Part shown: positions 1,578-37,980 of the stretch, one piece after another
How the letters are laid out: each line of letters begins with the position of its first letter
Numbering within the stretch: position 1 is the first letter of the stretch
Origin: Alloalcanivorax mobilis
GTDB taxonomy: Bacteria > Pseudomonadota > Gammaproteobacteria > Pseudomonadales > Alcanivoracaceae
DNA length: 64,000 nucleotides
Assembly (NCBI RefSeq): GCF_002864685.1
Contig: NZ_NMQZ01000001.1
Coordinates: 248,001 to 312,000, forward strand
Direction: 5' to 3'
Notes under the pieces: generated by a model
Database searches by the model: none
The model's input: only the letters and a program-made list of their open reading frames with translations
What the model was told of the DNA's origin: nothing
Program-made: the position numbers and the translations under genes

Positions 1578-1781
1578 CAGGATGAAGGATACAGGCGCGG
1601 GGAGAGGTGTCTGAACAGGCACGCCGTGCCCCGCGCTGAAAGGCCATTCGGCCGGGTAAAAAAAGAAAGAAAATAAGAAAAAGCCGTTGCGCTCGCAACG
1701 CTTAACGCCACACTGATAATCCTGAATCCTGAATCCTGAATCCTGAATCCTGAATCCTGAATCCTGAATCCTGTATCCTTC
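1578..1781. repeat. Heptamer-repeat inverted element, CAGGATN/AATCCTG units
   Basis: The right arm at 1718-1773 is eight perfect tandem copies of AATCCTG followed by one variant TATCCT. The left arm at 1578-1595 is the inverse: CAGGATG, AAGGATA, CAGG. An 11-base match (GAAGGATACAG against CTGTATCCTTC) makes the outer ends pair. The core, about 120 bases, contains a further palindrome at about 1685-1700 (GTTGCG-CTCGCAAC region) and an A-rich stretch. The element fills the space between two convergent genes and touches the stop codon of the downstream gene on the minus strand. It may act as a bidirectional terminator. Confidence 0.8.
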
Positions 1782-4657
1782 TAAGCCGGTCCCGGTCCGG
1801 GGGCGCCGATCAACGGCCTTTGACGACGCAGCAGGTCCAGCAGCAGGTCTTCGGCCACCGGCTTGCTGATCAGGTAGCCTTGAATGCTGTCGCACCCCAT
1901 GTCGCGCAGGATTTCCAGATGCTGGTGGGTCTCCACGCCCTCCGCCACCACGCTCATGTTGAGGCTGTGCGCCATCTCGATGATGGCCTTGGTGATGGCG
2001 GCGTCGTCGGGGCTGTGGTCCAGGTCGGTGATGAAAGAGCGGTCGATCTTGAGCGTGTCCACCGGGAAGCGTTTGAGGTAGTTCAGTGATGAGTAGCCGG
2101 TGCCGAAGTCGTCCAGGGAAAGCCCCACCCCACGGGCCCTGAGCCGCTCCAGCAGGGCGATGTTCTGATCCAGATCCTCCATGATCAGGCTTTCGGTAAG
2201 CTCCAGCTCAAGCAGGCGGGCGGGCAGGTCGGTGAGTTCCAGAATACGGTCGATCACGTCCGCCAGATTGCCCTTGCGGAACTGGTGCGCGGACAGATTC
2301 ACCGACACCCGGATATCGCCCAGACCGTGCTGATACCACTGCCGCGCCTGGCGGCAGGCGCGCTCCAGAACCAGTTCGCCGATCGCCGAGATCAAGCCGG
2401 ACTCCTCGGCCAGGGGAATGAACTCCGACGGCGGCAGCAGGCCCATGGTCGGGTGTTGCCAACGCACCAGCGCCTCCACCGCGGAGATGGTGTTGTCGGC
2501 CAGGTCCATCTTCGGCTGGTAGTGCACCACGAACTCGTTCTTGAAAATCGCCTTGCGCAGGCTGGTTTCCAGCGCCAGTTGTTCCACCGAGGCCATCTGC
2601 ATGCCGGTGCGGTAAAACTGGTAATTGTTGCCACCGCTGCGCTTCGCCTGGTGCACCGCCAGATCGGCCTGATTGATCATGGCCTGCGCCTCGGTGGCGG
2701 TGTTCGGGAACACGCTGATGCCAATGCTGGCGCCCAGCAGAAGCTCGTGACCGTCGATCAGAAACGGCTTTTTCATCACGTTGATGATGCGCTGACAGAC
2801 CGCGCCGATCTGGGTCTCGCTGGCGCAGGATTCCAGCACCAGGGTGAATTCATCGCCGCCCACCCGGGCCAGGTTTTCATCGTTGACGCCGCTTTGGCAG
2901 ATGCGTTCGGCGGCCAGTTTCAGCAAACGGTCACCGATCTCATGGCCAAGGCTTTCGTTGATCGGTTTGAAGCGATCCAGGTCGATCATCAACAGGGCCG
3001 CTTTCTCCCGGTTCACCCGCGCCACCGTTAACGACTTCTGCAGCCGTTCTCGAAACAGCGTGCGGTTGGGCAGCCCGGTCAGGCGGTCGTAGTTGGAGAG
3101 AAACTGCACCCGCTCTTCGGCTTCCTTGCGCGAGGTCAGATCGGAGATCATCCCCACATAGCGAATCACCCGCTGCTTTTCATCGAGCACCGAACTGATC
3201 TGAAGCCACTCCGGGAACATTTGCCCGTTGCGGCGTCGCTCGCTGATTTCCCCTTCCCAGAAGCCGTGCCGGCGCAACGCCCGGGTCACGGTTCGGTAGT
3301 TGTCACGGCTGCGCTCGGCGTGCTCGCTGTCGGTGACCTTGAAGCCCAGCACTTCGGATTCCCGGTAGCCGGTGATCTGCTCGAAGCGGGCGTTCACCGC
3401 CAGGAAGCGGAAATGGTGGTCGAGAATGAAAATGCCCTCCGGCGCGTTCTCGAACACGGTGGCGGCCAGCCGTTGCTGCTCCTGAGCATCGCGGGTGGCG
3501 GTGATGTCCCGGCGCGTGCCGATCATGCGCGTGGCCTGGCCCACCGCGCTCCATTCCACCACGCGGCCCTCGTCTTCGATCCAGCACCAGTGCCCCTTGG
3601 CGTGACGCAACCGGTAAATGGCGTGGTAGCGGTGCGTCTCGCTGCGAAAATGCGACAGCATGGCGCGGCGAATGGCCGGGAAATCATCCGGGTGCACCAG
3701 TTGCTGCAAGTCGCCGAAGAAATTGCGGAAATACTCGCTCTCGTAGCCGAGCAGCCGATCAAAGTTGGTGTGGTAGTTGGTGCCGGTGCTCAGATTCCAG
3801 TCCCACAGGCCGATGTTGCTGGCGTCCAGCGCCAGTTGCAGGCGTTCGCTGGTGGCGCTGAGGTCGCGGTTGGCCTGCTCCAGCGCGTGGGTGCGGTCGC
3901 TGACCATGGATTCGAGCCGGTCGTTGGCCTCCTGCAGCCGCCGCCGCGCTTCCTTGCGCTCGCAGATTTCCTCGGCGAGCTTTTCATTAAGGGCCTCGGC
4001 GTTGGCGCGGGCGCGGTCCAGATAATCAATCAGCGCGGTGTTGCTGGTTTGCAGATCCAGGGCCTGGTGGGTGGTCAGGTTGATGCGCCGCGCCGCCACC
4101 AGCAGAAAGCCGGCGGTGGCCACCAGCATCGCCACCAGGGCCGGTTCGTTGCCGTTGGCCAGCCCCAACTGCACGCACACCGGCGCCAGCAGGCAGAACT
4201 GATACAGCATCACGGTGGGCAAATGGCTGCTGTAGGCGGCCAGCGCAACGATACTCAGGCCAATGCCGATGCAGCTCATGGTCAACTGCGCGTACAGCAT
4301 GCTGCTGCTGAGCATGGAATCCAGCGGGTTGAGCAGCAGGCCGCCGGCGCCCATGGTCACCGCGGTGGCGAGAATCGCCACGGACAACCGCCGGCGCGCT
4401 GGGGCGTCGTCCTGGAAATGATTGCGGCGCAGCATCAGCCAGATCACCCGCAGCAACACCAGCGTCGCCACCAACGCCGCCCAGGGCAGCATCAACGCGC
4501 GCGGTGCCGGAGTTTCCCAATACGACCACAGCACCACCAGCACCGCCATCACCTCAAGGATATTCATCCCTCTCAACCCGGAGTTGAGGTGCTGGCACTG
4601 CGCGCGGATGACCGCTTGCTGCTGCTTATTGGACGGTGTCTGTGATGACGTAGGCAC
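1781..4657 (-). CDS. Membrane PAS-PAS-GGDEF-EAL cyclic-di-GMP signalling protein
   Basis: This 958-residue protein has a hydrophobic N-terminal sensor region (about residues 35-190, roughly six membrane segments), then a coiled coil (about 210-275), two PAS domains (about 275-520), a GGDEF domain with intact ARVGGDEF, and an EAL domain with [34 protein letters not shown] and VAEGVET. The EAL residues expected for phosphodiesterase activity are all present, and the GGDEF loop is canonical, so both activities are possible. The inhibitory RxxD site upstream of GGDEF reads GVND, so the Arg is missing. It probably links a membrane signal to motility or biofilm choice. It is transcribed alone, with a heptamer element at its 3' end. 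Confidence 0.93.
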
Positions 4658-4988
4658 GGGTCAGGTTCCAGGCTCGGGAGTCTCGCTGCGCGTGCTCCGA
4701 TCAGTGCGGCCCGGGGCCGTACTCCCCGGTGGTGCTGATGCACACGGACCTGGCGAGAGCGCTCGCTCGACGTCCTGCGTTTTTTGGCAGTTTACCCAGC
4801 CCCACCGGGAAGGGAAACCGAATCCGCCGTGTTGGCGAAAATGACCCCCGCACGGCGGTTTCGCGATGATCGCCACCCGTTGGCTGCGAAAAGCCGCCTG
4901 CGCAAGCCCCGTGCAAACCCTGATCGGTGCGGTTTGCGGGGCGATTGACGTGCCGCCTGGTGGCTGCGTTCTGGTAGACTTAGCCGCC
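4658..4988. other. Intergenic region between divergent GGDEF-EAL and uvrD genes
   Basis: These 331 bases have no convincing gene. They must contain promoters for both flanking genes, but I see no strong -35/-10 pair. An inverted repeat CCGCCGTG (4824-4831) / CACGGCGG (4851-4858) is present. A short GCGAG-AGCG-CTCGC hairpin followed by TGCGTTTTTT lies near 4755-4785. No LexA-type CTGT-N8-ACAG box was seen upstream of uvrD. Confidence 0.5.
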
Positions 4989-7145
4989 ATGGATGATGTG
5001 ACTTCCCTGATCGATGGTTTGAATCCGGCCCAACGCGACGCGGTGGCCGCCGAAGATCGCCATTTACTGGTATTGGCGGGCGCCGGCTCGGGTAAAACCC
5101 GGGTGCTGGTGCACCGTATCGCCTGGCAGATCGCCACCGGCCAGGCTTCCCCGTTCGGTATTCTCGCCGTGACGTTCACCAACAAAGCCGCCGCCGAAAT
5201 GCGTGGCCGCATCGAGCAGTTGCTGGAGATGCCCGCCAGCGGCATGTGGGTGGGCACCTTCCACGGTATCGCCCATCGTCTGCTGCGTGCCCACTGGCAG
5301 GAGGCACGGCTGCCGCAGAGCTTCGAGATCATCGACGCGGACGATCAGCAGCGGCTGGTCAAGCGGGTGATTCGCGAGCTGGGCCTGGATGAGCAGCGCT
5401 GGCCGGCCCGTCAGGCCACCTGGTTTATCAACGGCCAGAAAGACGAAGGCCTGCGCGCCGCGCACATGGACGTGGCCGCCGGCGATTTGTTCCTGGAGAC
5501 CATGCGCAGGATCTACACCGGCTACGAAGAGGCCTGTGAGCGCGGTGGCCTGGTGGATTTCAACGAGATGCTGTTGCGGGTGCTGGAGTTGTTCCGCGAC
5601 AACGATGAGCTGCGCGGCCATTACCAGCGTCGCTTCCGCCACATTCTGGTGGACGAATTCCAGGACACCAACTCGATTCAGTACGCCTGGCTGCGGTTGC
5701 TCGCCAATAACGATAACGCGGTGACCATCGTCGGCGACGACGATCAGTCGATCTACGGCTGGCGCGGCGCCAAGATCGAGAACATCCACAAATTCAGCCG
5801 CGATTTCCCGGACACCCGCACCGTGCGCCTGGAGCAGAACTATCGCTCCTCCGGCACCATTCTCAACGCCGCCAACGCGGTGATCGGCAACAACAGCGAT
5901 CGTCTTGGCAAACAACTGTGGACCGACGGTGGTGACGGTGAACCGATTCGCCTGTACGCCGGTTTCAATGAGGTGGACGAAGCCCGTTTTATCGCCGGTA
6001 AAGTGGACACCCACAGCCAGCAGGGCGGGCTGCGCCGCGACGTGGCGGTGCTGTATCGCTCCAACGCCCAGTCGCGGGTGCTGGAAGAGGCGTTTTTGCA
6101 GGCCGGTATTCCCTATCGCATCTACGGCGGGCAGCGCTTCTTCGAGCGCGCCGAGATCAAGAACGCGCTGGCCTATCTGCGCCTGCTGGGCAACCGGCAC
6201 GCCGACGCCGCCTTCGAACGGGTGGTGAACACCCCCACCCGTGGGATTGGCAATAAAACCCTGGAGACGCTGCGCGATCTGGCGCGCCAGCGTGGCGTGT
6301 CGCTGTGGGAAGCGGCCACCGCCCTGGTCAACGAGCGGCTGGTCACCGCCCGCGCCAGCAATGCCCTGCTGGTGTTCCTGCAATTGATCGACCAGTTACA
6401 GGCGGACACCGGGCCACTGAACCTGGCGGAAACCACCGAACACGTGATCGCCGCCAGCGGCTTGCTGGATTATCACGGTCAGGAAAAAGGCGAGAAGGCC
6501 CAGCAGCGCCTGGACAACCTGCACGAACTGGTCTCCGCCACCCGCCAGTTCGGCGACGAAGAGGGTGAAGAAGACCCGCTGCTTGCCTTTCTTGACCATG
6601 CCGCGCTGGAATCCGGTGAGGGGCAGGCGGACGCCCATGAGGACGCGGTGCAGATGATGACGTTGCATTCCGCCAAGGGCCTGGAGTTTCCGGTGGTGTT
6701 CATCACTGGCTTGGAAGAGGGGTTGTTTCCCCACCAGATGTCCTCCGACGACCCGGCCCGTCTCGCCGAGGAGCGCCGGCTGTGCTACGTAGGCGTGACC
6801 CGCGCCATGCGCGAGCTGTACCTGACCCACGCGGAGAGCCGCCGGCTTTATGGCAACGACACCCTCAATGCGCCAAGCCGTTTTCTGCGTGAAATTCCCG
6901 CCGAGCTGATCGAGGAAGTGCGCACCCGCGCCGCCATCAGCCGGCCGGTGGGCCGGCGCGGCACGGTGCGCCAGGAAGAATCCAACGGGGTGACCCTGGG
7001 GGCGCGGGTGGTGCATCCGAAATTTGGCGAGGGTACTATTTTGCACTTCGAGGGACAGGGGCCCAACGCCCGTCTGCAGATCAATTTTGACGACGCGGGC
7101 ACCAAGTGGCTGGTCAGCCAGTACGCGCGGCTGGAAGTGATTTAG
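4989..7145 (+). CDS. uvrD: DNA helicase II (UvrD), SF1 3'-5' helicase
   Basis: This ATP-dependent 3'-5' helicase of nucleotide excision and methyl-directed mismatch repair is 718 residues, close to the usual 720. Visible motifs in order are GAGSGKT (Walker A), TFTNKAAAEM (Ia), VDEFQDTN (II), GDDDQSIYGWRGA (III), LEQNYRS (IV), TLHSAKGLEF (V) and YVGVTRA (VI). The C-terminal segment beginning GARVVHPKFGEG resembles the Tudor-like RNA-polymerase-binding domain. An in-frame ATG exists at 4866, but the protein from 4989 (MDDVTSLIDGLNPAQRDAV) matches the known UvrD N-terminus, so 4989 is chosen. No strong Shine-Dalgarno is visible before it. Confidence 0.97.
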   Translation: MDDVTSLIDGLNPAQRDAVAAEDRHLLVLAGAGSGKTRVLVHRIAWQIATGQASPFGILAVTFTNKAAAEMRGRIEQLLEMPASGMWVGTFHGIAHRLLRAHWQEARLPQSFEIIDADDQQRLVKRVIRELGLDEQRWPARQATWFINGQKDEGLRAAHMDVAAGDLFLETMRRIYTGYEEACERGGLVDFNEMLLRVLELFRDNDELRGHYQRRFRHILVDEFQDTNSIQYAWLRLLANNDNAVTIVGDDDQSIYGWRGAKIENIHKFSRDFPDTRTVRLEQNYRSSGTILNAANAVIGNNSDRLGKQLWTDGGDGEPIRLYAGFNEVDEARFIAGKVDTHSQQGGLRRDVAVLYRSNAQSRVLEEAFLQAGIPYRIYGGQRFFERAEIKNALAYLRLLGNRHADAAFERVVNTPTRGIGNKTLETLRDLARQRGVSLWEAATALVNERLVTARASNALLVFLQLIDQLQADTGPLNLAETTEHVIAASGLLDYHGQEKGEKAQQRLDNLHELVSATRQFGDEEGEEDPLLAFLDHAALESGEGQADAHEDAVQMMTLHSAKGLEFPVVFITGLEEGLFPHQMSSDDPARLAEERRLCYVGVTRAMRELYLTHAESRRLYGNDTLNAPSRFLREIPAELIEEVRTRAAISRPVGRRGTVRQEESNGVTLGARVVHPKFGEGTILHFEGQGPNARLQINFDDAGTKWLVSQYARLEVI

Positions 7146-7202
7146 AAAAGAAGTCAGACGCTCCGCAGTGGGGCGAAAACAACAAAGAGTGGGAGAGAGT
7201 CA

Positions 7203-8363
7203 ATGGATCGTCGTAAGTTCGTTTCCGCCCTGGGGCTGGGGCTGGGCGCCACCGCGCTGGCCGCCTGTGGCCAGAAAGAAGAGCCGGCCAAACAAGACGC
7301 CGCCAGCACCGCCGCCGCGGGCACCGGCCAGGGTCAGGACGGCGCCAAGACCTACGAGTGGGACATGGTCACCACCTGGCCGCGCAACTACCCGGGCCTG
7401 GGCACCGGCGCCAACCGGTTCGCCGAGCGGGTCGAGAAAATGACCAATGGCCGCATGAAGATCAAGGTGCACGGCGCCGGTGAGCTGGTGCCGGCCATGG
7501 GCGTGTTCGACGCGGTGCGCTCCGGCAGTGCGCAGATGGGCCACGCCGCCTCCTATTACTGGAAAGGCAAGCACCCGGCCACCCAGTTCTTCACCGCCGT
7601 GCCGTTCGGCATGACCGGCCAGGAACTCAACGCCTGGGTCAACTTTGGTGGTGGTCAGGCGCTGTGGGACGAACTGTACGCCCAGTTCAACATGAAACCG
7701 TTCGCCTGCGGCAACAGCGGCAGCCAGATGGCCGGCTGGTTCAACAAGGAAATCAACAGCCTGGAGGACATCAAGGGCCTGAAGATCCGCATGCCCGGCC
7801 TGGCCGGTGAAGTGATCCAGCGGCTCGGCGCGATCCCGGTGCAGATGCCCGGCGGCGAGGTGTTCACTGCCCTGCAGACCGGCGCGCTGGATGCCGCCGA
7901 CTGGGTCAGCCCGTACAACGATCTCGCCTTCGGCCTGTACAAGGTGGTCAAGTATTACTACTACCCCAGCTGGCAGGAACCCGGCGCCATGCTGGAACTG
8001 ACCATCAACAAGGAACAGTGGGACGGCCTGCCCGCGGACCTGCAGTCGATCATCGCCAACGCCGCCGAGGCGGAAAACCAGCGCATCTACGACGAGTTCA
8101 CCGCCCGCAACGCGGATGCCCTCAAGCAGCTGGTGGACGAGCACGGCGTCAAACTGCGGCGCCTGCCCGAAGACGTGTTGATGGCGCTCAAGGAGACCAG
8201 CGACAAGGTGGTCGCCGACCTGGTCGCCAACAACCCGGAAGCCAGCAAGGTGTATGACTCTTACCGCAGCTTCCGCGACAGCATCCTGCCGTCGATCGCG
8301 GTGGCCGAGCAGGCCGCGCTCAACGCACGCTCTCGTGTGCTGGGTCGTGAGGAGGATATTTAA
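7203..8363 (+). CDS. dctP: TRAP transporter periplasmic solute-binding protein (DctP/TakP-like)
   Basis: The 386-residue protein starts MDRRKFVSALGLG and has a twin-arginine-type signal followed by a lipobox (LAAC, Cys22), suggesting Tat export and lipidation. The mature part has TRAP-binding-protein features: WPRNYPGLGTGANRF, ELVPAMGVFDAV, IKGLKIRMPG, GGEVFTALQTGALDAADWVSP. The WPRNYPG and GALDAADW features recall TakP-type 2-oxoacid binders; this is from memory and the ligand is not proven. A GGGAGAG ribosome site lies just before the ATG. Its permease genes dctQ-dctM are nearby but on the opposite strand and convergent, an unusual layout for a TRAP system. Confidence 0.9.
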   Translation: MDRRKFVSALGLGLGATALAACGQKEEPAKQDAASTAAAGTGQGQDGAKTYEWDMVTTWPRNYPGLGTGANRFAERVEKMTNGRMKIKVHGAGELVPAMGVFDAVRSGSAQMGHAASYYWKGKHPATQFFTAVPFGMTGQELNAWVNFGGGQALWDELYAQFNMKPFACGNSGSQMAGWFNKEINSLEDIKGLKIRMPGLAGEVIQRLGAIPVQMPGGEVFTALQTGALDAADWVSPYNDLAFGLYKVVKYYYYPSWQEPGAMLELTINKEQWDGLPADLQSIIANAAEAENQRIYDEFTARNADALKQLVDEHGVKLRRLPEDVLMALKETSDKVVADLVANNPEASKVYDSYRSFRDSILPSIAVAEQAALNARSRVLGREEDI

Positions 8364-8382
8364 GCGCCGCCTGGGGCGGCGC

Positions 8383-8552
8383 ACGCTGGACGCTGGACGC
8401 CTGACGCCTGACGCCTGACGCCGGACGCCGGACGCTAAAGTCAAAACCCGAGACGGAAGGCATTGCGGCTGCGCAAACGCTCTTTGCGTAGCCGCATCGC
8501 TCTGAAACCAGGGGGTTTTAGCGTCCGGCGTCAGGCGTCCGGCGTCTAGCGT
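8383..8552. repeat. Heptamer-repeat inverted element, ACGCYRG units
   Basis: The left arm is eight uninterrupted 7-bp units (ACGCTGG x2, ACGCCTG x3, ACGCCGG x2, ACGCTAA) at 8383-8438. The right arm at 8518-8552 is five inverse units (TTAGCGT, CCGGCGT, CAGGCGT, CCGGCGT, CTAGCGT). The core is itself nested: AAAACCC/GGGTTTT, then GGCTGCGCAAA/TTTGCGTAGCC, so the whole 170 bp can fold on itself. The 5' part of the core (AAAACCC…ACGGAAGGC…TTGCGGCTGCG) recurs at 28362-28396. It lies between convergent dctP and yciA and may terminate both. Confidence 0.85.
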
Positions 8553-8553
8553 T

Positions 8554-8949: not shown

Positions 8950-8957
8950 GTTGTTAT

Positions 8958-12335: not shown

Positions 12336-12355
12336 TCCTGAACGGGAGTCGTTGA

Positions 12356-19339: not shown

Positions 19340-19377
19340 AAGCCGCAAGCCGCAAGCCGCAAGCTTCAAACGACAAG
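19340..19377. repeat. Heptamer repeat, single arm, AAGCCGC units
   Basis: AAGCCGC is repeated three times from 19340, then decays to AAGCTTC, AAACGAC and AAG. No inverse arm is seen before arsH. It begins directly after the arsB stop codon. Confidence 0.7.
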
Positions 19378-20156: not shown

Positions 20157-20171
20157 GGGGGAAGGGGGCCG

Positions 20172-22546: not shown

Positions 22547-22560
22547 CCGGCAGGGAGGAG

Positions 22561-22640
22561 CCGCAAGCCGCAAGCCGCAAGCTGAGAAAGGTTCGTTGTA
22601 GCTTGTAGCTTGTAGCTTGTAGCTTGTAGCTTGCGGCTTG
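22561..22640. repeat. Heptamer-repeat inverted element, CCGCAAG/TTGTAGC units
   Basis: The left arm is CCGCAAG x3 (22561-22581). The core is about 14 bases. The right arm is TTGTAGC x5 then TTGCGGC (22596-22637). It separates convergent slyX and phoR and ends only a few bases from the phoR stop. Confidence 0.85.
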
Positions 22641-28310: not shown

Positions 28311-28326
28311 GGCTTCGATGGGGCGG

Positions 28327-28488
28327 ACGCCGGACGCCGGACGCTAGACGCTAGACGCTAAGATCAAAACCCTTCACGGAAGGCGTTGCGGCTGCGTAGG
28401 TGGTCTTCCTCGTGTCGTGGACCGCGATGAGTCACGGGTCTAGCATCTGGCGTCCAGCGTCCAGCGTCCAGCGTCCAGCGTCCAGCGC
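28327..28488. repeat. Heptamer-repeat inverted element, ACGCYRG units, second copy
   Basis: The left arm is five units (ACGCCGG x2, ACGCTAG x2, ACGCTAA; 28327-28361). The right arm is CTAGCAT, CTGGCGT, CCAGCGT x4 and CCAGCGC (28440-28488). The 5' core (TCAAAACCC…ACGGAAGGCGTTGCGGCTGCG) matches the element at 8383-8552 nearly base for base, while the 3' half differs. It lies downstream of the SCP2-like gene. Confidence 0.85.
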
Positions 28489-28575
28489 CAAACCGCTATT
28501 GCCTCGGCGTTCACGGGCGGTAGGATGGAAGCGTGGTGTTGAGCCACGCCTTCGTCGCCGACCAGGAAGTCCGCC

Positions 28576-29187
28576 ATGCGCACCCCCCGTTTTGTTCTGC
28601 TCGTTCTGTTCGCCGCGCTGCTCAGCGCCTGCGCCCCCCCCACCGAAGTGACCTCCGGCTGGCACGCCAAGGTCGAGCCCAAGCCGCATTTTCAGCGGTT
28701 GTTCGTGATTGCTCTGCTCAGCGACGACGACGCCCGGGTGGCGGTGGAGGATGCCCTTGGCAAGGCGCTCAGCGGCCAGGGCGTGCAAGCGGTGCTGGCC
28801 CACCAGAAGATTGGCGACGTGTCCGGCAGCGACGATCTGCGCGCCCGCGCCGAGCAGGCGGTGAAAGCCGCTGGCGCCGATGGCGTGCTGGTGGCCTCGT
28901 TCCTGAAAGCGGACGTGCGCGCCGATTACGTGCCTGGCCACCTGGCCCGTGGCAGCGATTTCGGCAGCTCCGTGGGTGCCTCCTACGACACCGTCTACCA
29001 GCCCGGCTACTACGTGGAAAACCAGGATTACTACATGCAAAGCACCCTCTATCGGGTCGGCAGCGACGCCGCCGTCTGGCAGGCCCAGTCGCGGCTCATC
29101 AACCCCACCAGCCTGAAAAAAGCGGCACGCGGCTACGCCGGCGATCTGGCGGACCGGTTGCGCAAAGATGGCGCGCTGGGGAAGTGA
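28576..29187 (+). CDS. Predicted outer-membrane lipoprotein, 203 aa
   Basis: A lipoprotein signal (RTPRFVLLVLFAALLSAC) has its lipobox Cys at residue 19, and the next residue is Ala, which suggests outer-membrane sorting. The mature part has a Rossmann-like start (FQRLFVIALLSDDDARVAVEDALGKAL), then ADGVLVASFLK and a Tyr-rich stretch (YDTVYQPGYYVENQDYYMQ). The layout resembles DUF4136-type lipoproteins, but I cannot confirm this. AGGAAG precedes the ATG. Its stop codon abuts a heptamer repeat element. Confidence 0.75.
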   Translation: MRTPRFVLLVLFAALLSACAPPTEVTSGWHAKVEPKPHFQRLFVIALLSDDDARVAVEDALGKALSGQGVQAVLAHQKIGDVSGSDDLRARAEQAVKAAGADGVLVASFLKADVRADYVPGHLARGSDFGSSVGASYDTVYQPGYYVENQDYYMQSTLYRVGSDAAVWQAQSRLINPTSLKKAARGYAGDLADRLRKDGALGK

Positions 29188-29345
29188 AGTTAAAAGTTAA
29201 AAGTTAAAAGTTAAAACGCGTCACCTGCCGCGCCGGCACCAACGGAGTGCGCCGCGCTGCGGTGGTGGGTTGCATCGATGTTTGCGGACAATCCATCACC
29301 GGATAGAGGCAGCGAGCGCTCCTTTCAACTTTCAACTTTTAACTT
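29188..29345. repeat. Heptamer-repeat inverted element, AGTTAAA/TTTCAAC units
   Basis: The left arm is AGTTAAA x4 (29188-29215), immediately after the TGA of the lipoprotein gene. The right arm is TTTCAAC x2 and TTTTAAC (29323-29343). The core is about 107 bases and GC-rich. The right arm overlaps the last codons of the MATE gene on the minus strand. The unit differs completely from the other elements, but the 7-bp period and layout are the same. Confidence 0.82.
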
Positions 29346-30632
29346 GTTTTTCCCTCGAACCCAGACCCACCCCATCAACACCCCCCGGCTGGCCATCATC
29401 GTGTTCATCGCCAGCCACAGGCCGTGGTTGCCCCAGGCGCTGGTGAACCACCAAACCGGGAAGAACAGGCCGGTGGCCACCAGCATGGTGTTTCTCATCG
29501 AGCGCGCCAGGGTGGCGCCGACGAACACGCCGTCCAGCCAGAAGCCGGCGCTGGCGGTGATCGGCAGCAGCAGCATCCAGGGCAGATAGTCGATGGCGGT
29601 GGCGCGCACCGATGGCAGATCGGTGCGCAGCCGGATCAGCGCCGCGCCGCCCAGGGCGAAGCCGAGCAACCCGGCCAGCGCGATGATCGCCGACCATTTG
29701 CCGGTGGCCGCCACCGCCCGTTTCAGATCCCGCGCCCGGCCGCCGCCGAGTGCCTCACCGACCAGGGCTTCGGCGGCGTTGGCGAAGCCGTCGAGAAGGT
29801 TGCTCAGCAGCAATAGAAATGTAATCAGCACCGCGTTGGCGGCCAGAATGGTGTCGCCCAGGCGGGCGCCCTGGGCGGCGAAAAAGAAGAACACGCTGAG
29901 CAGCGCCAGGCTGCGCACGAAAATATCCCGGTTCACCGCCAGCAGCCGCAGCATCGCCGTGGGTTGCCACAGGGCGCCGCGCGGCCGTGCCCGCCAGGCG
30001 GCGCCGAAGATTTCCTCGCGCAGCCAGAACAGGCCGCCGGCCAGGCCCAGATATTCCGCGGCGGCGCTGGCGGCGGCGACGCCGCGCACATCGAAGTGCC
30101 ACACCTGCACCAGCAGCACGTCGAGCAGGGCGTTGGCCAGGTGCATCAACACCGTCATTTTCAGCGCCACCCGGGTGCGATGCACACCAATGGCAAAACC
30201 GATCAAGGCGAAATTACCCAGCGCCGCCGGCGCTCCGAGCACGCGCAGATCAATGTACTCCCGCGCCAGGCTCCGCACCTCGGGGCTGCCGCCGAGCAGC
30301 CACAGGCCCAGCTCCCGCAGCGGTACGTGTAACGCCACCAGCGCTACGCCGACCAGCCCGGCCAGCAGCAGCGCGCGCAGCAACACCACCAGGGTATTGT
30401 CGCCCGCGCCCCGTGCCTGGGCGGTAAAACCCGTGGTGCCCATGCGCAGGAAATTGAAGGAAAAATACAGAAACATGAAGAAGTTGCCGCCCAGCGCCAC
30501 CGCCGCCAGATAAGACGGCGACGGCAAATGGCCGACCACGGCGGTGTCCACCAGGCCCAGCAGCGGCGCGCTCATGTTGGCCAGCAACAGCGGCCAGGCC
30601 AGCGCCCAGATGCGTCGGTCCAGCCCGTTCAT
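29325..30632 (-). CDS. dinF: MATE-family multidrug/metabolite exporter (DinF-like)
   Basis: The 435-residue membrane protein has 12 predicted helices. The first, RIWALAWPLLLANMSAPLLGLVDTAVVGHL, contains the P and VDTAVVG features of the DinF branch of MATE exporters, and RMGTTGFTAQARGAGD is the matching family loop. It exports drugs or metabolites against Na+ or H+. The final residues (KNKLKVES) are translated from heptamer repeats, so the reading frame has run into the intergenic element. Confidence 0.9.
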   Translation of the reverse strand: MNGLDRRIWALAWPLLLANMSAPLLGLVDTAVVGHLPSPSYLAAVALGGNFFMFLYFSFNFLRMGTTGFTAQARGAGDNTLVVLLRALLLAGLVGVALVALHVPLRELGLWLLGGSPEVRSLAREYIDLRVLGAPAALGNFALIGFAIGVHRTRVALKMTVLMHLANALLDVLLVQVWHFDVRGVAAASAAAEYLGLAGGLFWLREEIFGAAWRARPRGALWQPTAMLRLLAVNRDIFVRSLALLSVFFFFAAQGARLGDTILAANAVLITFLLLLSNLLDGFANAAEALVGEALGGGRARDLKRAVAATGKWSAIIALAGLLGFALGGAALIRLRTDLPSVRATAIDYLPWMLLLPITASAGFWLDGVFVGATLARSMRNTMLVATGLFFPVWWFTSAWGNHGLWLAMNTMMASRGVLMGWVWVRGKNKLKVES

Positions 30633-30656
30633 GAAACGACAGTCATGAAAAGAGCG

Positions 30657-32247: not shown

Positions 32248-32275
32248 AGAAATCCGGCCAATCAGTGAAACCCGT

Positions 32276-32292
32276 ATGATATATTATTTCAT
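32276..32292. promoter_or_regulatory. Candidate Zur operator between znuCB and znuA
   Basis: ATGATATATTATTTCAT is an imperfect palindrome (ATGA-n-ATA-n-TAT-n-TCAT) in the AT-rich centre of the divergent znuC/znuA space. Position and AT-rich dyad fit a Zur site, but the match to published consensus (TGTTATAnTATAACA) is partial. Confidence 0.5.
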
Positions 32293-32359
32293 TCCCGCGA
32301 CGGTCTCTTTCCGGAGGCTTTTTTCGCCAGCCCTCATCGCCAACCCTGGACGGCCCTTG

Positions 32360-33253: not shown

Positions 33254-33341
33254 CCGGCGCGCCGGGCGCGGTTCCGGCCGGGCCCATTGAGCCATGCAAG
33301 GAAACCGGTATGCTGATGCGTTTCCTGCTTCGAGGTGATTG

Positions 33342-34463
33342 ATGGGGCTGCGGCTGGCGGACGGCGGACGACTCGCGATGACGTGCTGGGATTACGCCTG
33401 GCCGCTGTGTCGCGATTACGGCGCCGTGGAGAGAATGCTGGATGAAACCCGCGCGCGCGGCTTCAATGCCGTGCGTCTGGACCCCTATCCCCACCTGCTC
33501 GCCACTCCGCTCAATGGTGTCCACCTGGACCGTTGCGAAATCCTGCCCGAGGCGGACCGGCGCCGGAGAATCGTCGCCGGCGCGCACACCGTGGAAATCC
33601 GCAAAGCGTTTCAACGGCTGTTGGGCGCCGCCCGCGACCGCGACATCAAACTCTGGTTCAGCGGCTTCTTTGTGCCCGACAGCCGTGCCCGACGCTCGTT
33701 TGTGCGCCGCCCCGCCGATTACGTCGATGTCTGGGCCCAGACGCTGGAGCTGGCTCGGCGTTGGGGCTATCTGGACACCATCGTGGCGGTGGATTTCGCG
33801 CATCATTTTCCGTTCCCGCCATGGAGCCACGGTGTCACCCGCCGCCTGTTCGACCGCGCCCCCCAGCGTGGCTTACCGGAACGCTGGAGCGGCGAACAGG
33901 AGCGCGCGGTGGAGCGCTATCTGCTGGAGGTGCCGCGTGCGCTAAGGGCGCTGTTCCCCCAGATCAGCTTCGGATTGAGCGCCGCCGCTGGCCACTGCGA
34001 GGCGCTGCGCCAGTTGGACACCAGTGAACTGGATTTCCTGGATCTGGGCGTGTGGCTGGATGACGATCCGCGCTTCCGGCTGGTCAGCGGCGCCGGCTTG
34101 CCGGTGCCGGACGCGCTGCGCCGCCGGCTGACCGCGCCGGTGCACCAGGCGTTGTTGGAAACCACCGGCGATCATTGGCGCGAGCGGATTCAGGACCAGC
34201 TCAACCGGCGCCTCGCCTTCGCCCGCCTGCGCCGCCTGCAGCCGGTGCTCGGAGAGGGCTATCTGAGCGTTGCCGGTGAACCAGACTCACCGCCGCGCCG
34301 CTGGGCGGCGTTCACCGAGGCGGTGGTGGCCCGGGCGGTGGAAGACGGCGTCTCGGTGATCACCCCGACCAGCCTGGCGCGCCCGCACACGCCCTGGCTG
34401 TGGCGGCAGGTGGACTGGCTGGCGCGGTTGAACCACCTGATTATCACCGGCCCGGGGCGTTAA
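33342..34463 (+). CDS. Cellulase-like (GH5-like TIM barrel) family protein
   Basis: A 373-residue protein without signal peptide. It opens TCWDYAWPLCRDYGAVERMLDETRARGFNAVRLDPYPHLLATP, the pattern of a (beta/alpha)8 glycosidase in which a strand holds RLDPYP. Later blocks are DIKLWFSGFFVPD, LDTIVAVDFAHHFPF, FGLSAAAG, LDLGVWLDDD and LQPVLGEGYLSV. These fit the cellulase-like Pfam family seen in several bacteria; activity has not been shown. The GAGGTG site supports the ATG at 33342 over the TTG at 33339. Its stop overlaps that of the convergent homoserine kinase gene. Confidence 0.65.
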   Translation: MGLRLADGGRLAMTCWDYAWPLCRDYGAVERMLDETRARGFNAVRLDPYPHLLATPLNGVHLDRCEILPEADRRRRIVAGAHTVEIRKAFQRLLGAARDRDIKLWFSGFFVPDSRARRSFVRRPADYVDVWAQTLELARRWGYLDTIVAVDFAHHFPFPPWSHGVTRRLFDRAPQRGLPERWSGEQERAVERYLLEVPRALRALFPQISFGLSAAAGHCEALRQLDTSELDFLDLGVWLDDDPRFRLVSGAGLPVPDALRRRLTAPVHQALLETTGDHWRERIQDQLNRRLAFARLRRLQPVLGEGYLSVAGEPDSPPRRWAAFTEAVVARAVEDGVSVITPTSLARPHTPWLWRQVDWLARLNHLIITGPGR

Positions 34464-35404
34464 CCAAACGGCGCCGACGCCTCCACGCCGCCCAGGGCGC
34501 TGAACCGGTAGCCGAATATGCGCGCGAACTCGGAAGGGTCTTTACTGCCTTCGCCTTCGGATTGCTCGGACACCGGCCCGGCCAGCCGCGACAACCAGAA
34601 GCGCAACGCCGCCACCGCCAGGGCCAGAGCCAGTATCGATTCGTCCCAATGGCCACCGGCATCGCGATAGGCGGCCAGCAGCGCCGCCTGCCGGCGGGGT
34701 ACCGGGCGGCCATCGTGGGCCACCGCCCAATCGTTCAACGCCACCGCGAGGTCGTATTCGGGGCGCTCCAGGCAGGCGTTGTAGAAATCCAGTACCCCGG
34801 TGAGCCGGCCCTGGTCATCGAACAGGGCGTTGTCACGGAACAAATCCGCGTGCACCGGCACGTCGCCGGGATCAACCCCCGCCCATTGCTCGAGAATCTG
34901 CCGGGCGTGCATTTGGTCGCCTTCGCTGAGACGGCACAGATGATGGGCGAAGGTGTCCAGCCGCTGGCGCTCATCGGTTAATGCCCGCGCCGGCGCCGAG
35001 GGTTGCCGATGCAGGCGCGCCAGCAGCGCGCCGATTTGCTGACAATGCGGCACTTCCGGTTCGAAGCAGTGGCCGCCGGGCAGGCGCGGGGTCAGCACCG
35101 CCGGCTTGCCGACCACCTCGAACAGCCGCTGGCCATGGTCATCACTGAGCGCCGCCGGCACCGGCAGACCCGCCGCCGCGAGGCTGGCAAGCAACTCCAG
35201 ATAAGGCGCCAGCGCGGCGCCGTCGAATTGCTCGAACACCGTCAGCACCACCGGCCGGGGCTCGCCCGAGGCGGTATCGGCGTCGATCAGGAAGGTGCTG
35301 TTCTCGATGCCGTGGCGAGCCGCCTCGGCGCCTTTCAGCGTCAATTCAAAGCGCGCCAGCAGGCGGGCCAGGTGTTCGGTTTCAATGCGGGTGTACACCG
35401 ACAT
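34460..35404 (-). CDS. thrB: Homoserine kinase, ThrB type II (APH fold)
   Basis: A 314-residue protein of the aminoglycoside phosphotransferase-like homoserine kinases used by pseudomonads for threonine synthesis. Features: VYTRIETEHLARLLARFEL at the start, GIENSTFLIDA for nucleotide binding, catalytic VPVHADLFRDNALFDDQGRLTGVLDFYNACLERPEYDLAVALNDW, and C-terminal FWLSRLAGP. A GGGAAGAG site precedes the ATG. The polA-thrB-znu neighbourhood resembles P. aeruginosa. Confidence 0.92.
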   Translation of the reverse strand: MSVYTRIETEHLARLLARFELTLKGAEAARHGIENSTFLIDADTASGEPRPVVLTVFEQFDGAALAPYLELLASLAAAGLPVPAALSDDHGQRLFEVVGKPAVLTPRLPGGHCFEPEVPHCQQIGALLARLHRQPSAPARALTDERQRLDTFAHHLCRLSEGDQMHARQILEQWAGVDPGDVPVHADLFRDNALFDDQGRLTGVLDFYNACLERPEYDLAVALNDWAVAHDGRPVPRRQAALLAAYRDAGGHWDESILALALAVAALRFWLSRLAGPVSEQSEGEGSKDPSEFARIFGYRFSALGGVEASAPFG

Positions 35405-35547
35405 GGGGCTCTTCCCTGAAAACAGCCCGGGATGACCGGGCCAGGCATCTCAGGCGATGTTATAACCGCTGGCGTCCCGGGGGAACTGCCGCGTCAGGTC
35501 GAGCCCCACCGGTTTGTTGGCGCCCGCTACGGGCCTGAGGAGAAATC

Positions 35548-36585
35548 ATGTCGCTGCAGGAAAAGATCGAACGCGCCACCGTACGCTCGCTGATGAAACT
35601 GCCCGGCCCGGTGCTGGGCCGGCTCGCCGGCCTGGTGGAAAAGGTTAACCGTGAACGGCTCGACCCGCGGCTGCGCCTGCTGCTGGCGCTGGGCGATGGC
35701 CGTAAAGGCTTCCACCAATTGCCGTTGCCCAAGGGCCGGGCCTTGTATGGCCAGATGATTCGCATGCTCGACGTGGATTTCCAGCCGGTGGCGGAAACCC
35801 GCGACCTGCGTGTGCCGCTGGCCGCTGGCGACGGCGATTTTCTGGTCAAGCTGTACCGGCCCAAAGGCGCCGCCAGCGAGGCGCCGGCGATCGTATACTT
35901 CCACGGCGGCGGGTTCACCATCGGCAGCGCCGAGCAATACGACCACCTGTGCCGCTATCTGGCCAACCGCACCGGCGCGGTGGTGCTCAACGTGGATTAC
36001 CGCCTGGCGCCGGAGTTTCCCTCGCCGGCCGCCGCCGACGATGTGCTCAGCGCCTGGCGCTGGCTGCTTGAAAACGCCGCCGAGCTGCGCATCGATGCGA
36101 CCCGCCTGGCCACCATGGGCGACAGCGCCGGTGGCAACCTGTGCATCGTCGCCGCCCAGCAGGCCGCCGTCCACGGGCTGACCCTGCCCAAGCTGGTGGT
36201 GGCGGTCTACCCGACCACCGACGGCGCCATGGACAGCCCGTCGGTGGCGCAGCTTGGCGGCGGCCAGGGTGGCCTGGATCTGGCCATGATGAACTGGTTC
36301 CGCGACCACTATCTGCCGGACAAGTCGGTGCTCGACGACCTTCGCGTCTCGCCGCTGCGCAACCCGGACCTGGCCGGCCAGCCCACCACCGTGCTGGTCA
36401 CCGCCACCGACCCGCTGCGCGACGAAGGTCTGGCCTATGGCGAAAAGCTCAAACAGGCCGGTGTCACCGTGATCAATCTGGACTACCCCGAACTGGTGCA
36501 TGGCTTTATCACCATGGGCGGCGCCATCCCGGCCGCCCGCGCGGCGGTCAACGCCATCTGCCGGCGGATTACCGAGCGGTTGTAG
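35548..36585 (+). CDS. Alpha/beta hydrolase, hormone-sensitive-lipase-like esterase
   Basis: The 345-residue cytoplasmic esterase has the oxyanion motif YFHGGGFTIGS (about residue 118), nucleophile MGDSAGGNL (Ser near residue 193), acid in TATDPLRDEG and catalytic His in LVHGFITM. NVDYRLAPEFPSPAAADDV is the usual family IV (HSL) sequence. A 75-residue N-terminal cap precedes the core. It probably hydrolyses short acyl esters. GAGGAG precedes the ATG. A heptamer element, now split by an IS, follows its stop. Confidence 0.9.
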   Translation: MSLQEKIERATVRSLMKLPGPVLGRLAGLVEKVNRERLDPRLRLLLALGDGRKGFHQLPLPKGRALYGQMIRMLDVDFQPVAETRDLRVPLAAGDGDFLVKLYRPKGAASEAPAIVYFHGGGFTIGSAEQYDHLCRYLANRTGAVVLNVDYRLAPEFPSPAAADDVLSAWRWLLENAAELRIDATRLATMGDSAGGNLCIVAAQQAAVHGLTLPKLVVAVYPTTDGAMDSPSVAQLGGGQGGLDLAMMNWFRDHYLPDKSVLDDLRVSPLRNPDLAGQPTTVLVTATDPLRDEGLAYGEKLKQAGVTVINLDYPELVHGFITMGGAIPAARAAVNAICRRITERL

Positions 36586-36672
36586 GGCTACAAACTGCAA
36601 GCTGCAAGCCACAAGGGTTGTTCTTGGAGTGGCCCGAGAAAAGTAGACACCTTTCTGAGAGAGGAAAGGTGT

Positions 36673-36990
36673 ATGAAATTCCGGGCACGTCGATCTTTCA
36701 GCGACGACTTCAAAGGCGAGGCGGTCGAGTTGTCGCTGTCCAGCCCGCAGACACTGGCCGAAGTCGCTGGCAAACTGGGTGTTCATCCCAACGTGTTAAG
36801 CCGCTGGCGCAGTGAGTGGATCATGGCTCATCAAAGATCGGATCAACCGGCTCCCCAGCCGGGGCCGGAGAAGAGCGTTCGGGAGCTTGAGCGGGAAAAC
36901 GCTCGGCTGAAGAAGCAACTGGCACGGGCGAAGCTGGAGAACGACATCCTAAAAAAGGCGGAAGAGTACGTTGCCAAGCACCGGAAATGA
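36673..36990 (+). CDS. IS3-family transposase OrfA
   Basis: The 105-residue protein has an N-terminal helix-turn-helix (RRSFSDDFKGEAVELSLSSP, then EVAGKLGVHPNVLSRWRSEW) that binds the IS ends, and a leucine-zipper-like coil (RELERENARLKKQLARAKLENDILKKAEEYV). The A_AAA_AAG at 36951-36957 in the zero frame allows a -1 shift into OrfB to make the OrfAB transposase; no stop lies between. Its TGA overlaps the OrfB ATG. Confidence 0.93.
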   Translation: MKFRARRSFSDDFKGEAVELSLSSPQTLAEVAGKLGVHPNVLSRWRSEWIMAHQRSDQPAPQPGPEKSVRELERENARLKKQLARAKLENDILKKAEEYVAKHRK

Positions 36991-37847
36991 GGTTCGCCTT
37001 CATTGACGGCCATCACGACGCGGCGTGGCCGGTCGCGCTGATGTGCAGCGTACTCGATGTCTCCCGGGCAGGGTATTACCGTTGGCGTCAGCGCCAACAC
37101 CGGCCCAGTCCGCGCCAGCGGCACCACCAAGCCTTGAGTTCGTTCTTGCTGGAAGCCGCCGAGCAACAGGAGAGCGTTCCGGGGTATCGTAAACTCTGGC
37201 TGGACGCTCAGGATGCCGGTTTTGCTTGCGGCAAGAATCAGGTACAGAGGCTGTTGCGGGAGGCGGGCTACCGGTCGTGTGTCGCCATGAAGCCCGGGCA
37301 TCGCCGCCCAGATCCCGGCCTGCCGGTGCCACCGAACCTGCTGAACCGTGACTTTGAGGTCTCTGAGGCCAACCGGGTATGGGTCTCAGACATCACGCAG
37401 ATACGGTGTCGGGAAGGCTGGCTGTATATGGCGGTGGTGTTGGACCTGGGGACTCGGGACGTAGTGGGCCGGGCGTTGGGCCCGGTGAACCACTCCAACC
37501 TGGTCCTTGAGGCTCTTGAACAGGCTTGGCGCCGGCAGTGCCCCAAAGGCGAGGAGTTACTGTTCCACTCGGACCAAGGCAGCCAGTATCGCAGCGAAGC
37601 GGTAGTGGGGTGGTTGAACGCCCGAGGCGTGACGATCAGCATGTCCCGCCCTGGAAATTGCTGGGACAACGCCTGCGCAGAGAGCTTCTTTGCGCTGCTC
37701 AAGAAGGAGTGGACCCGACGCCTGGGGCTGATTGGGCGGGACGAGATGGCGAGTGAAATCCGATACTACACGGATCAATTTTACCCCAAGATGCGGCGTC
37801 ATATGGCCTTGGGGGGACTTACCCCTCATGCCTATGCCGCCGCCTAA
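36987..37847 (+). CDS. IS3-family transposase OrfB (DDE integrase)
   Basis: The 286-residue protein has the HTH_21-like N-terminus (VPGYRKLWLDAQDAGFACGKNQVQRLLREAGY) and an rve catalytic core with the DDE triad intact: Asp in RVWVSDITQI, Asp in LLFHSDQGSQY, and Glu in NACAESFFALLKKEW. It is expected to be expressed mainly as the OrfAB frameshift fusion, though an ATG exists at the overlap with OrfA. Confidence 0.95.
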   Translation: MRFAFIDGHHDAAWPVALMCSVLDVSRAGYYRWRQRQHRPSPRQRHHQALSSFLLEAAEQQESVPGYRKLWLDAQDAGFACGKNQVQRLLREAGYRSCVAMKPGHRRPDPGLPVPPNLLNRDFEVSEANRVWVSDITQIRCREGWLYMAVVLDLGTRDVVGRALGPVNHSNLVLEALEQAWRRQCPKGEELLFHSDQGSQYRSEAVVGWLNARGVTISMSRPGNCWDNACAESFFALLKKEWTRRLGLIGRDEMASEIRYYTDQFYPKMRRHMALGGLTPHAYAAA

Positions 37848-37980
37848 ACCGGTGTCTACTTAAACCGGTCCACTCCATCTTGAAGCTTGTAGCTTGTAGC
37901 TTGCGGCTTGCAGCCGCAACCTGACCTGACCGCTTGGCGGCGCTACACTGTGCGCTTCACCGATCTGACCAGGGAATTCC

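Follow-up and report, generated by a model that had tools for sequence, protein, structure and literature searches.

Many intergenic regions of the marine oil-degrading bacterium Alloalcanivorax mobilis carry tandem repeats with a 7-bp period, and we read these as dispersed REP-like stem-loops at the 3' ends of genes, with heptad arms that change length by 7-bp slippage, an interpretation that we regard as evenly balanced between right and wrong. A complete element would run from a heptad array through a loop, or a structured core of ~85–100 bp, to the same array inverted; it would occupy an untranslated stretch just downstream of a stop codon and could form a long hairpin on either strand. 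Arm length may change in either direction through 7-bp slippage steps, as the runs of like units and the array lengths in sister species suggest, and class B elements, whose dispersal is seen directly, would have been copied whole to further gene ends, leaving no clear target duplication. About five positions per unit stay constant and are most likely read by a putative DNA- or RNA-binding protein or by the copying machinery, the remaining bases probably acting as spacers. Judging from sequence, the most likely role of the hairpin is bidirectional, at the 3' ends of genes, in transcript termination or mRNA protection. An excess of heptamers in bacterial genomes has long been noted and its mechanism is unsettled, the most detailed case in the literature that we compared being tied to G-quadruplexes.

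The initial annotation of the window (the whole stretch of DNA analysed, 64,000 bp) had listed at least nine intergenic sites with exact 7-bp units, usually as two inverted arms. Sequence inspection and repeat detection located period-7 repeats at all nine, and at least one further array lies at 63441–63459 (Table 1). Exactness does not extend to four left arms (1578, 16985, 20172 and 36591), whose units are degenerate, and the site at 19340 has a single clear arm. The site at 36591 is one arm of an element split by an insertion sequence, with 36588–36615 paired with 37879–37914; a 3-bp TCT duplication, one copy on each side, flanks the insertion at 36625–37877. The arms at 1574–1595 and 1718–1779 likewise belong to a single class D element. 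Of the ten runs in the window that reach 14 matched bases, nine have period 7; in 20 first-order Markov shuffles taken together, two runs of this length appeared, neither of period 7. A degenerate detector at threshold 14 returned 12 arrays of period 7, five of its harmonic 14, and no more than two for any other period between 4 and 16. In the window, 11 of the 16 distances between the edge of an array and a flanking stop codon do not exceed 30 bp, with genes called by a home-made codon-usage caller that missed at least arsR. No Rfam family matched the window above its gathering score.

Table 1 Heptad arms, cores and the associated insertion sequence in the window.
Feature	Start	End	Strand	Basis	Description
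Class D (AGGATNN) left arm	1574	1595	+	sequence	Degenerate; directly past stop of ORF 579–1568
Class D right arm	1718	1779	-		8.9 units; 1 bp from stop of GGDEF/EAL gene (1781–4657, minus)
Class B (GACGCNN) left arm	8383	8435	+		7.6 units
Class B core	8436	8520	none		AAAACCC...GGGTTTT edges and inner hairpin; homologues at many other loci
Class B right arm	8521	8552	-		1 bp off stop of thioesterase gene
Class A (CAAGCNN) left arm	16978	17003	+		Degenerate; downstream of phoU
Class A right arm	17027	17051	-		Degenerate
Class A single array	19340	19364	+		First base directly follows arsB stop codon TAG
Class A left arm	20169	20196	+		Degenerate; downstream of arsH
Class A right arm	20214	20239	-		Partner of arm at 20169
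Class A left arm	22559	22582	+		
Class A right arm	22596	22640	-		Ends 3 bp short of phoR stop codon
Class B left arm	28324	28360	+		
Class B core	28361	28438	none		Profile match confined to first half, ~44 bases
Class B right arm	28439	28487	-		
Class C (AAGTTNN) left arm	29187	29216	+		Overlaps TGA stop
Class C core	29217	29321	none		
Class C right arm	29322	29345	-		Over stop and final bases of called MatE gene (29325–30632, minus)
Class A left arm	36588	36615	+		IS-interrupted element
Insertion sequence	36625	37877	+		rve/HTH_21 transposase; within class A loop
Class A right arm	37879	37914	-		IS-interrupted element
Class E (TCAGTNN) array	63441	63459	-		Short, single

Beyond the window, the enrichment of 7-bp over other periods, whose absence the annotation had named as a refutation, was borne out. 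In 681,519 unselected bases (36 stretches, L088–L104 and L106–L124) there are 67 intergenic arrays of period 7 against at most five of any non-harmonic period; at threshold 14 the detector gives 58 arrays of period 7, whether intergenic or not, and 0–6 of other non-harmonic periods. In this unselected sample, which served for density and context, 67 of the 70 period-7 arrays lie outside called genes. A further 20 stretches (L135–L154) were used for anatomy only, because their contigs had partly been picked from earlier matches, and L105 was excluded from all counts because it had been picked for its array. The total sample for anatomy comes to 1.107 Mb of the 4.10-Mb genome, and across it the same 7-bp period recurs over unlike words, as had been proposed for the window.

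Eight word classes take in 201 of the 208 arrays in the 1.107 Mb, and the remaining seven were left out of the class counts. Each class combines a conserved word of ~5 bases with one or two free (spacer) bases; 32 of the 40 word positions (five per class, eight classes) are at least 95% conserved. The commonest spacers are TG, TA and CG in class A and CG, CA and TG in class B. CAAGC, CACGC, GACGC and GACGT are words one step apart. Both class labels and words were set after inspecting the arrays, so that any statement on polarity is one of consistency within a class, and, since GACGTC is palindromic, the polarity of class F is ambiguous. In arms located through their cores, G-A-C-G reaches 0.85–0.99 in units 1–3 against 0.57–0.71 for the two spacer bases, in a count of 94 arms, one without an anchor, in which unit 0 is partly conditioned by that anchor. 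Units 1–3 are quoted because unit 4, with 49–87% at word positions, lies beyond the end of many arms. Core columns average 0.70–0.72, below the word positions of these same arms, and the words are conserved although the cores fall to 57–58% identity. A common mechanism copying or expanding heptamers regardless of sequence, as first suggested, is thus not supported in its last part, since word positions are held at 80–100% and only one or two positions per unit vary; the shared period, layout and stop-codon position on which the suggestion was built do stand.

This constraint bears directly on the idea that the arrays are neutral simple repeats, formed by a polymerase slipping in 7-bp steps, tolerated anywhere and read by nothing. 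A single period over many words would follow naturally from such slippage, for which a 7-nt polymerase contact has been proposed in accounts of heptamer excess (PMC4692102, PMC4679880), and neighbouring units are indeed homogeneous, adjacent class B units having identical spacers in 0.576 of cases compared with 0.259 expected. Lengths also differ in sister species: where two sister pairs share a site, we found 14.3 vs 7.3 and 11.3 vs 4.4 units (one array in L022/L023, one in L011/L012), with the same unit kept, and a second L022/L023 array is nearly equal at 7.1 vs 6.7 units. However, repeats read by nothing would not be expected to hold their word positions while the spacers of the same units vary, nor to have class-matched arms of fixed polarity, homologous cores between class B arms, or a strongly asymmetric placement on the stop side of genes. 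The within-unit constraint disfavours neutral repeats, which we consider unlikely.

The arms have a consistent anatomy. Sixty-five of 81 neighbouring array pairs in the 1.107 Mb face inward, so that the two-armed layout described for the window holds across the genome sample, and in 62 of these 65 both arms belong to one class; one class B pair has the opposite polarity. An inward partner above threshold is lacking for 71 of the 201 classified arrays, 33 of which have no inverted word within 250 bp. Among class B cores, 31 of 39 fall in two homologous groups, and a class B element comprises a core of ~85 bp and two arms of ~35 bp. Core profiles built from the 31 class B elements recovered all of them, and a search of the 1.107 Mb with the cores alone returned 47 places, 43 of which have heptad arms on both sides. 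For matches outside the training set this holds at 12 of 16 (six B/B, five F/F and one A/H), the other four lacking an arm. Three of the 47 matches cover only about half of the model, and the window core at 28361–28438 matches the profile at E 3e-6 with 52% of the model covered. Core homology was seen only in classes B and F; for class C, BLAST linked two of 12 cores, and it gave no links among class A, D and E cores. Together, class-matched arms, constrained words and homologous cores point to dispersed elements, at least for B/F, and not to blind expansion alone. Spacers show no covariation from one arm to the other (class B, p 0.45; class C, p 0.44), suggesting an absence of selection for complete arm pairing. 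Frequent arm-to-arm copying by quasipalindrome conversion was considered and rejected, as spacers match between arms no better than in shuffled pairs.

Discrete dispersed copies with inward polarity could also be MITE-like non-autonomous transposable elements, the heptad arms being the terminal inverted repeats on which a transposase acts, and the arms do supply the inverted repeats by which MITEs are defined. Copies of class B at unlinked loci are up to 95.7% identical over 138 bp, and the median start of the pairwise alignments lies 35 bp out from the core, a distance equal to the median length of an arm; roughly one in four of these alignments ends within the core. Around homologous cores the B and F words match on both sides, with 37 B/B, five F/F and no B/F combinations by majority word. 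On the other hand, a target duplication, the second defining trait of MITEs, is absent beyond a small excess: the mean flanking direct repeat is 0.65 vs 0.28, and a direct repeat of at least 6 bp occurs at only one of 65 elements, with none convincing. Mixed arms argue against the idea as well: at L153:3131, F units make up the outer portion of just one B arm, and one core match has class A on one side and class H on the other. With the class B element of the window as the one query (E up to 1e-5), neither 72,556 plasmid nor 50,697 phage records gave a match, and among the 47 core matches in 1.107 Mb of the 4.10-Mb genome no two half cores surround a gene. Finally, none of the genome's three Y1-type transposase genes is bracketed by heptad arrays, one of them having a single class E array ~200 bp upstream. 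Taken together, we judge a MITE-like origin improbable.

Returning to gene-end stem-loops, elements are found at 17 of 68 convergent junctions, 26 of 376 tandem junctions and three of 69 divergent junctions. The median distance to a flanking stop codon is 11 bp, compared with 92 bp to a start, and the stop-codon position described for the window therefore holds across the genome sample. When both strands of 62 elements were each compared with 20 shuffles, 121 of the 124 strands folded with z below -2. In the window, z is -8.5 for the whole class B element at 8383–8552, which lies between the DctP and thioesterase genes, -5.6 for the class A element at 22559–22640, -4.7 for the class C element at 29187–29345 and -4.5 for the class D element. 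We also considered that the elements replace terminators. Hairpin-plus-T-tract terminators are present at 14 of 68 convergent and seven of 59 tandem ends with an element, and at eight of 60 convergent and 34 of 237 tandem ends without one; with this simple detector the two groups are not clearly different, which supports neither replacement nor a terminator role.

Published descriptions of REP/BIME elements, 20–40 bp palindromes with a GTAG or CGTC tag and several families in some organisms (PMC3733652, PMC12306157), agree with our elements in dispersal and in placement downstream of genes and between convergent genes: REPs follow coding regions, in the gaps of convergent and of unidirectional gene pairs, and often supply a TAG stop (PMC3733652). 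Membership of a REP/BIME family moved by RAYT transposases is nevertheless very improbable, given the element size and the tandem 7-bp arms, which do not feature in the REP descriptions compared. The tagged 20–40 bp unit is missing, and no tagged 8–9 bp REP stem unit was seen by inspection, though GCGTC contains CGTC. The annotation had named REP as a known family that might explain the arrays; neither its defining unit nor RAYT flanking was found. One of the three Y1 genes (in L160) is flanked by GTGGGAGC palindromes of its own. Still less probable are three-frame stop cassettes, in which a stop-bearing 7-bp unit closes three frames within 21 bases; AAGTTAA, GACGCTAG and TTAATAG do contain stops, and the paper on Beggiatoaceae remarks likewise on TAACTGA (PMC4679880), but the words disfavour this, as most class A and B units have no stop on the strand leaving the gene.

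The closest published parallel that we found is the GGGAATC heptamer of Xanthomonas (Rehm et al. 2015, PMC4692102). It has five conserved positions (1–4 and 6), occurs as two inverted arrays in 70 and 75 cases, lies 0–50 bp from stop codons or overlaps them, is under-represented between divergent genes, and varies in length among related species. Dispersed intergenic 7-bp units with five conserved positions, inverted pairs, stop-codon position, scarcity between divergent genes and length differences among relatives are thus common to both systems. G-quadruplexes, proposed for the Xanthomonas and Nostoc heptamers, could be extended to our elements on the shared period, inverted pairs and stop-codon position, yet the eight conserved words are free of GGG, only 18 of 201 arms contain three consecutive G or C anywhere (in spacers or at edges) and none of the 201 contains four such runs, making this the most remote of the explanations considered. 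The Xanthomonas account describes one G-rich word type, whereas the eight words here lack the runs of G that a quadruplex needs, the arms are matched by class and, in class B/F, the cores are homologous. Since period, inverted arrangement and stop-codon placement recur with eight such words, the G-quadruplex explanation cannot hold in general.

Other heptamers are known as well, so that the absence of any named element, assumed in the initial annotation, did not hold: both the Xanthomonas inverted pairs near stop codons and the 7-bp STRRs of cyanobacteria had been published. Cyanobacterial STRRs (short tandemly repeated repetitive sequences) are usually 7 bp and hairpin-capable, with transcript stabilisation proposed and function described as unknown (PMC2670836). 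The hallmarks of heptanucleotide STRRs or SSRs, namely tandem intergenic 7-bp units, hairpin capacity and length variation, are all present in our elements, which differ from the STRR accounts in the arm/core anatomy and word constraint described here and in belonging to a distant phylum. Several words per genome have a precedent, since one Calothrix strain has three different heptanucleotides (per PMC4692102). TAACTGA of Beggiatoaceae, an abundant intergenic 7-bp direct repeat mostly upstream of start codons (PMC4679880), differs in its single word, its direct arrangement (one genome has 169 direct sets against one indirect repeat) and its start-side position. Geobacter metallireducens has more than one family of dispersed tandem-heptanucleotide elements, some paired on opposite strands, which are interpreted as regulator or RNA sites, one family also lying inside genes (PMC2700814). 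No publication on these elements in Alcanivorax turned up in our literature searches, which were mostly of the open literature. Within a kind of bacterial repeat that has received little study, the new features here are the eight words in one genome, the modularity of arms and cores, and the constraint on the word.

These parallels lead us to raise, as a single joint reading that we hold only tentatively and consider doubtful on balance, a general class of bacterial gene-end elements in which word and putative reader co-evolve. Such elements would be spread in Alcanivorax and Pseudomonas, with other words in Xanthomonas, cyanobacteria and Geobacter; a putative partner would recognise a five-base word recurring every 7 bp in both arms, and the word would be replaceable by lineage while core, step, inward polarity and stop-codon site persist. 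The distinction between constrained word and free spacer positions offers a direct handle for seeking a binding partner, and comparing the same junction in related species makes word turnover testable. The heptad words at a shared junction can differ from species to species; at the junction before arsH, the gene pair is not identical in all species compared. TTAATAG units are found at a gene end in related species, and word-pattern counts range from 0 to 733 per genome across the genus, with overlapping matches counted so that one long array contributes several.

A strong preference for a period of 7 was tallied in the window as runs of at least 14 bases matching at one fixed lag (lags 1-20), with nine of ten such runs at lag 7 and, in 20 Markov shuffles of the window, two runs in total, neither of them at lag 7. 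The shared 7-bp period pointed out in the initial annotation holds well beyond the window. In 36 stretches (681,519 bases) of the same genome (4.1 Mb, 92 contigs) that were not picked for repeats, a degenerate detector at threshold 14 returned 58 arrays of period 7 and 37 of its harmonic, 14, vs. 0-6 for each of the other periods between 4 and 16. At threshold 12, 67 of 70 period-7 arrays in this sample lie outside called genes, and the largest intergenic count for any non-harmonic period is five. Five period-7 arrays were detected at threshold 14 in 44 loci of other gammaproteobacteria (L044-L087, 864,187 bases). Some contigs terminate in heptad arrays (genome G000, end of contig C21, array at 54317-54365 of 54385; genome G024, starts of C15 and C18), so assembly probably stops at such arrays and the number of long ones is underestimated. 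The 18-bp/9-bp repeats at 46614-46718 of the window (GGATAACCCGGACAATCC) lie within the ORF 46519-48528 and are a coding kind of repeat.

For classification of the heptad words we used the window plus 56 stretches of its own genome (1,107,132 bases) at a detector threshold of 10. Of the 208 arrays found, 201 match one of eight words, with class labels defined after viewing the arrays; a ninth word, G (CGAGTNN), is present in relatives and absent from this own-genome sample of 1,107,132 bases.

Heptad word classes among the 201 assigned arrays (1,107,132 bases)
Class	Word	Arrays
A	CAAGCNN	23
B	GACGCNN	94
C	AAGTTNN	28
D	AGGATNN	14
E	TCAGTNN	13
F	GACGTNN	18
H	CACGCNN	8
I	AGTTGAN	3

Five word positions per unit are kept at 80-100% (at least 95% at 32 of the 40 positions in the eight classes), and one or two positions in each unit are free, the free pair being mostly pyrimidine-purine in classes A and B. 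The arrays are typically arranged as inverted arms around a core. Among 81 pairs of neighbouring arrays no more than 200 bp apart, 65 are inward-facing, and in 62 of the 65 the two arms share a word, vs. ~27% same-word pairs expected under random pairing from the class frequencies of the 201 arrays. One class B pair points outward, and the remaining 15 of the 81 are class F pairs, mixed pairs or pairs in the same direction. Core length is 75-95 bp for most of class B, 89-121 bp in class D and 85-105 bp in class C, plus one class C core of 40 bp. Two homologous groups take in 31 of 39 class B cores; typical edges in both resemble AAAACCC...GGGTTTT, with an inner hairpin around TTGCGTAGCCGCAA in one group and around GTGTTTCCTG...CAGGAAACAC in the other. 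Class C cores have short motifs in common at most, and BLAST links two of 12. RNA folding gave z-scores below -2 for 121 of 124 element strands, the three exceptions belonging to classes A and H; the four window elements tested have z = -8.5, -4.7, -5.6 and -4.5. At two places in stretch L175 of genome G002 (2138-2385 and 7926-8155), class A and class C arms are interleaved rather than nested (A+ C+ A- C- and C+ A+ C- A-); simply placing one element inside another does not account for this order. At the phoU/arsR junction of three relatives (L019, L021, L027), nested palindromes are visible by eye: heptad arms enclose a terminator-like hairpin and a GTAGGAGC-type palindrome, with a CCACAGAGG palindrome inside the latter.

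Searching with profiles built on the two class B core groups, arms excluded, yielded 47 matches (31 from the training set and 16 new), with model coverage of at least 80% in 44 and about half in three, one of which is the window element at 28324. Pairwise identity of the matched cores is 57-58%. The flanking arms are B on both sides at 37 places, F on both sides at five and A plus H at one; three places have one clear arm and one has none. The A plus H case (L112:16790-16952 of the own genome, CAAGC left and CACGC right) is the sole clear arm-word mismatch among the core matches. Since both core groups are found with F arms (at two and three places), arms and cores combine. GACGC is still the innermost unit beside the core at all five places with F arms, and at L153:3131 GACGT is confined to the outer portion of a single B arm, as if an altered unit had spread through the outer units. 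In units 1-3 of the arms found in this way, G, A, C and G of the word are kept at 0.85-0.99 and the fifth base, where C or T makes the B/F difference, at 0.82-0.87, compared with 0.57-0.71 for the two spacer bases and a mean of 0.70-0.72 for core columns. Word and spacer are equally old within a unit, so this gap points to constraint on the word and not to young arms. Whole elements have multiplied in tandem at L143:4580-4906, which has three consecutive class B cores, the intervening arms being common to neighbours.

The spacers also bear on how arms are built. Between left and right arms they agree no better than in shuffled pairs, both for class B (39 elements; p = 0.45 in the best register, 0.39 beside the core) and for class C (12 elements; the corresponding p values are 0.44 and 0.90), which argues against selection on arm pairing over its full length and against frequent conversion between arms. 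Within one arm, adjacent units have identical spacers in 57.6% of cases vs. 25.9% expected in class B, and in 54.1% vs. 49.1% in class C. Likeness within arms, with none beyond shuffled pairs between them, fits local duplication of units, clearly so for class B.

The placement next to stop codons claimed from the window was borne out in the unselected sample, where the distance from array edge to flanking stop codon has a median of 11 bp (30 bp or less in 43 of 60), vs. 92 bp to a flanking start codon (30 bp or less in four of 32). Class B arms often start inside the stop codon or a few bases off (TAGACGC). Of the 54 elements of this sample, two are within called genes and six at stretch ends; the others occupy 17 of the 68 convergent, 26 of the 376 tandem and three of the 69 divergent junctions. 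By a simple terminator detector, gene ends that have an element do not clearly differ from those that lack one. Taken together, words, cores and constraint suggest that a protein or machinery would read the heptad word, and that the elements would act at 3' ends. Their placement is common to REPs (PMC3733652). The statement in the initial annotation that no named element has such properties does not stand, as heptamers are already in print: PMC2670836 describes hairpin-capable 7-bp STRR sequences in cyanobacteria, and PMC4692102 reports three different heptanucleotides in one Calothrix strain and GGGAATC heptamers in Xanthomonas, which have five conserved positions, form 70 and 75 inverted pairs and lie near stop codons or overlap them. 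The elements described here are of this known kind. Our search of the literature on heptamer repeats and Alcanivorax repeats did not find the present combination of features, which is apparently new: a single genome with eight unlike words, matched arms that enclose homologous cores, modularity of arms and cores, and a constrained word next to unconstrained spacers.

PhoU of the window is 86-93% identical to that of many Alcanivorax and Alloalcanivorax species. Relatives show unlike words at one junction in different species, with most relatives lacking any array. At the DctP/thioesterase junction the window has word B; among 23 relatives with both genes, one has D (L010), two have A (L021 and L040), 19 have no array and one is masked (L024). 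At phoU/arsR, where the window has A, marked arrays occur in nine of 31 relatives, with words A or A-like, H and G. Upstream of arsH, the window and L011-L013 have ArsB, with word A in the former and no array in the latter; the two others scanned (L008 and L019) have an SBF-family transporter there, a swap of pump type within a conserved neighbourhood. This transporter was assigned to 22 relatives by a common end motif, and ten have arrays at its junction with arsH: one of word C, one of word G and eight of AGTKAAY type, the latter often overlapping the stop codon. Between sister pairs (about 90% and 88% DNA identity), arrays of the same unit at the same site have 14.3 vs. 7.3 and 11.3 vs. 4.4 units; another shared array has 7.1 vs. 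6.7. Across the genus, three-unit pattern counts, in which overlapping matches let one long array count several times, form a mosaic: word A, 273 in the own genome, 171 in G002 and 0 in G005-G008; B, 733, 513 in G008, 128 in G012 and at most 17 in the other ten; C, 111, 121 in G002, 80 in G003 and 45 in G001; D, 39, 51 in G003 and 42 in G004; H, 50 and 93 in G008. With the patterns reversed as a control, D and H gave 0, A gave 20 in G008 and no more than 1 in any other genome, B gave 3 in the own genome plus 29 in G017 (another genus), and C gave 17 and 26 in the own genome and G002, respectively. Four units of word A occur in three of 274 genomes sampled across the class, including the own genome. 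An A element of like layout lies a few bases past a likely stop in Pseudomonas mendocina (L045).

Identity between class B copies at unlinked loci is as high as 95.7% over 138 bp. In 682 class B pairs, the median start of the alignment lies 35 bp beyond the core (quartiles 46 and 31) and the median end 32 bp beyond it (upper quartile 37 bp outside, lower quartile 72 bp inside); for comparison, the median arm is about 35 bp long. The longest alignments are at places with duplicated cores (L143, L146 and L153). No clear target duplication was found, and the window's class B element had no match in plasmid or phage collections. The loop of a class A hairpin in the window holds an insertion sequence (36625-37877) with near-matching 30-bp ends (23/30) and a 3-bp TCT duplication, which we take to be IS3-type from its rve and HTH_21 domains. 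Finally, a Y1-type transposase gene between GTGGGAGCGGTCC palindromes at L160:7500-9400 is likely a REP/RAYT pair unrelated to the heptads.
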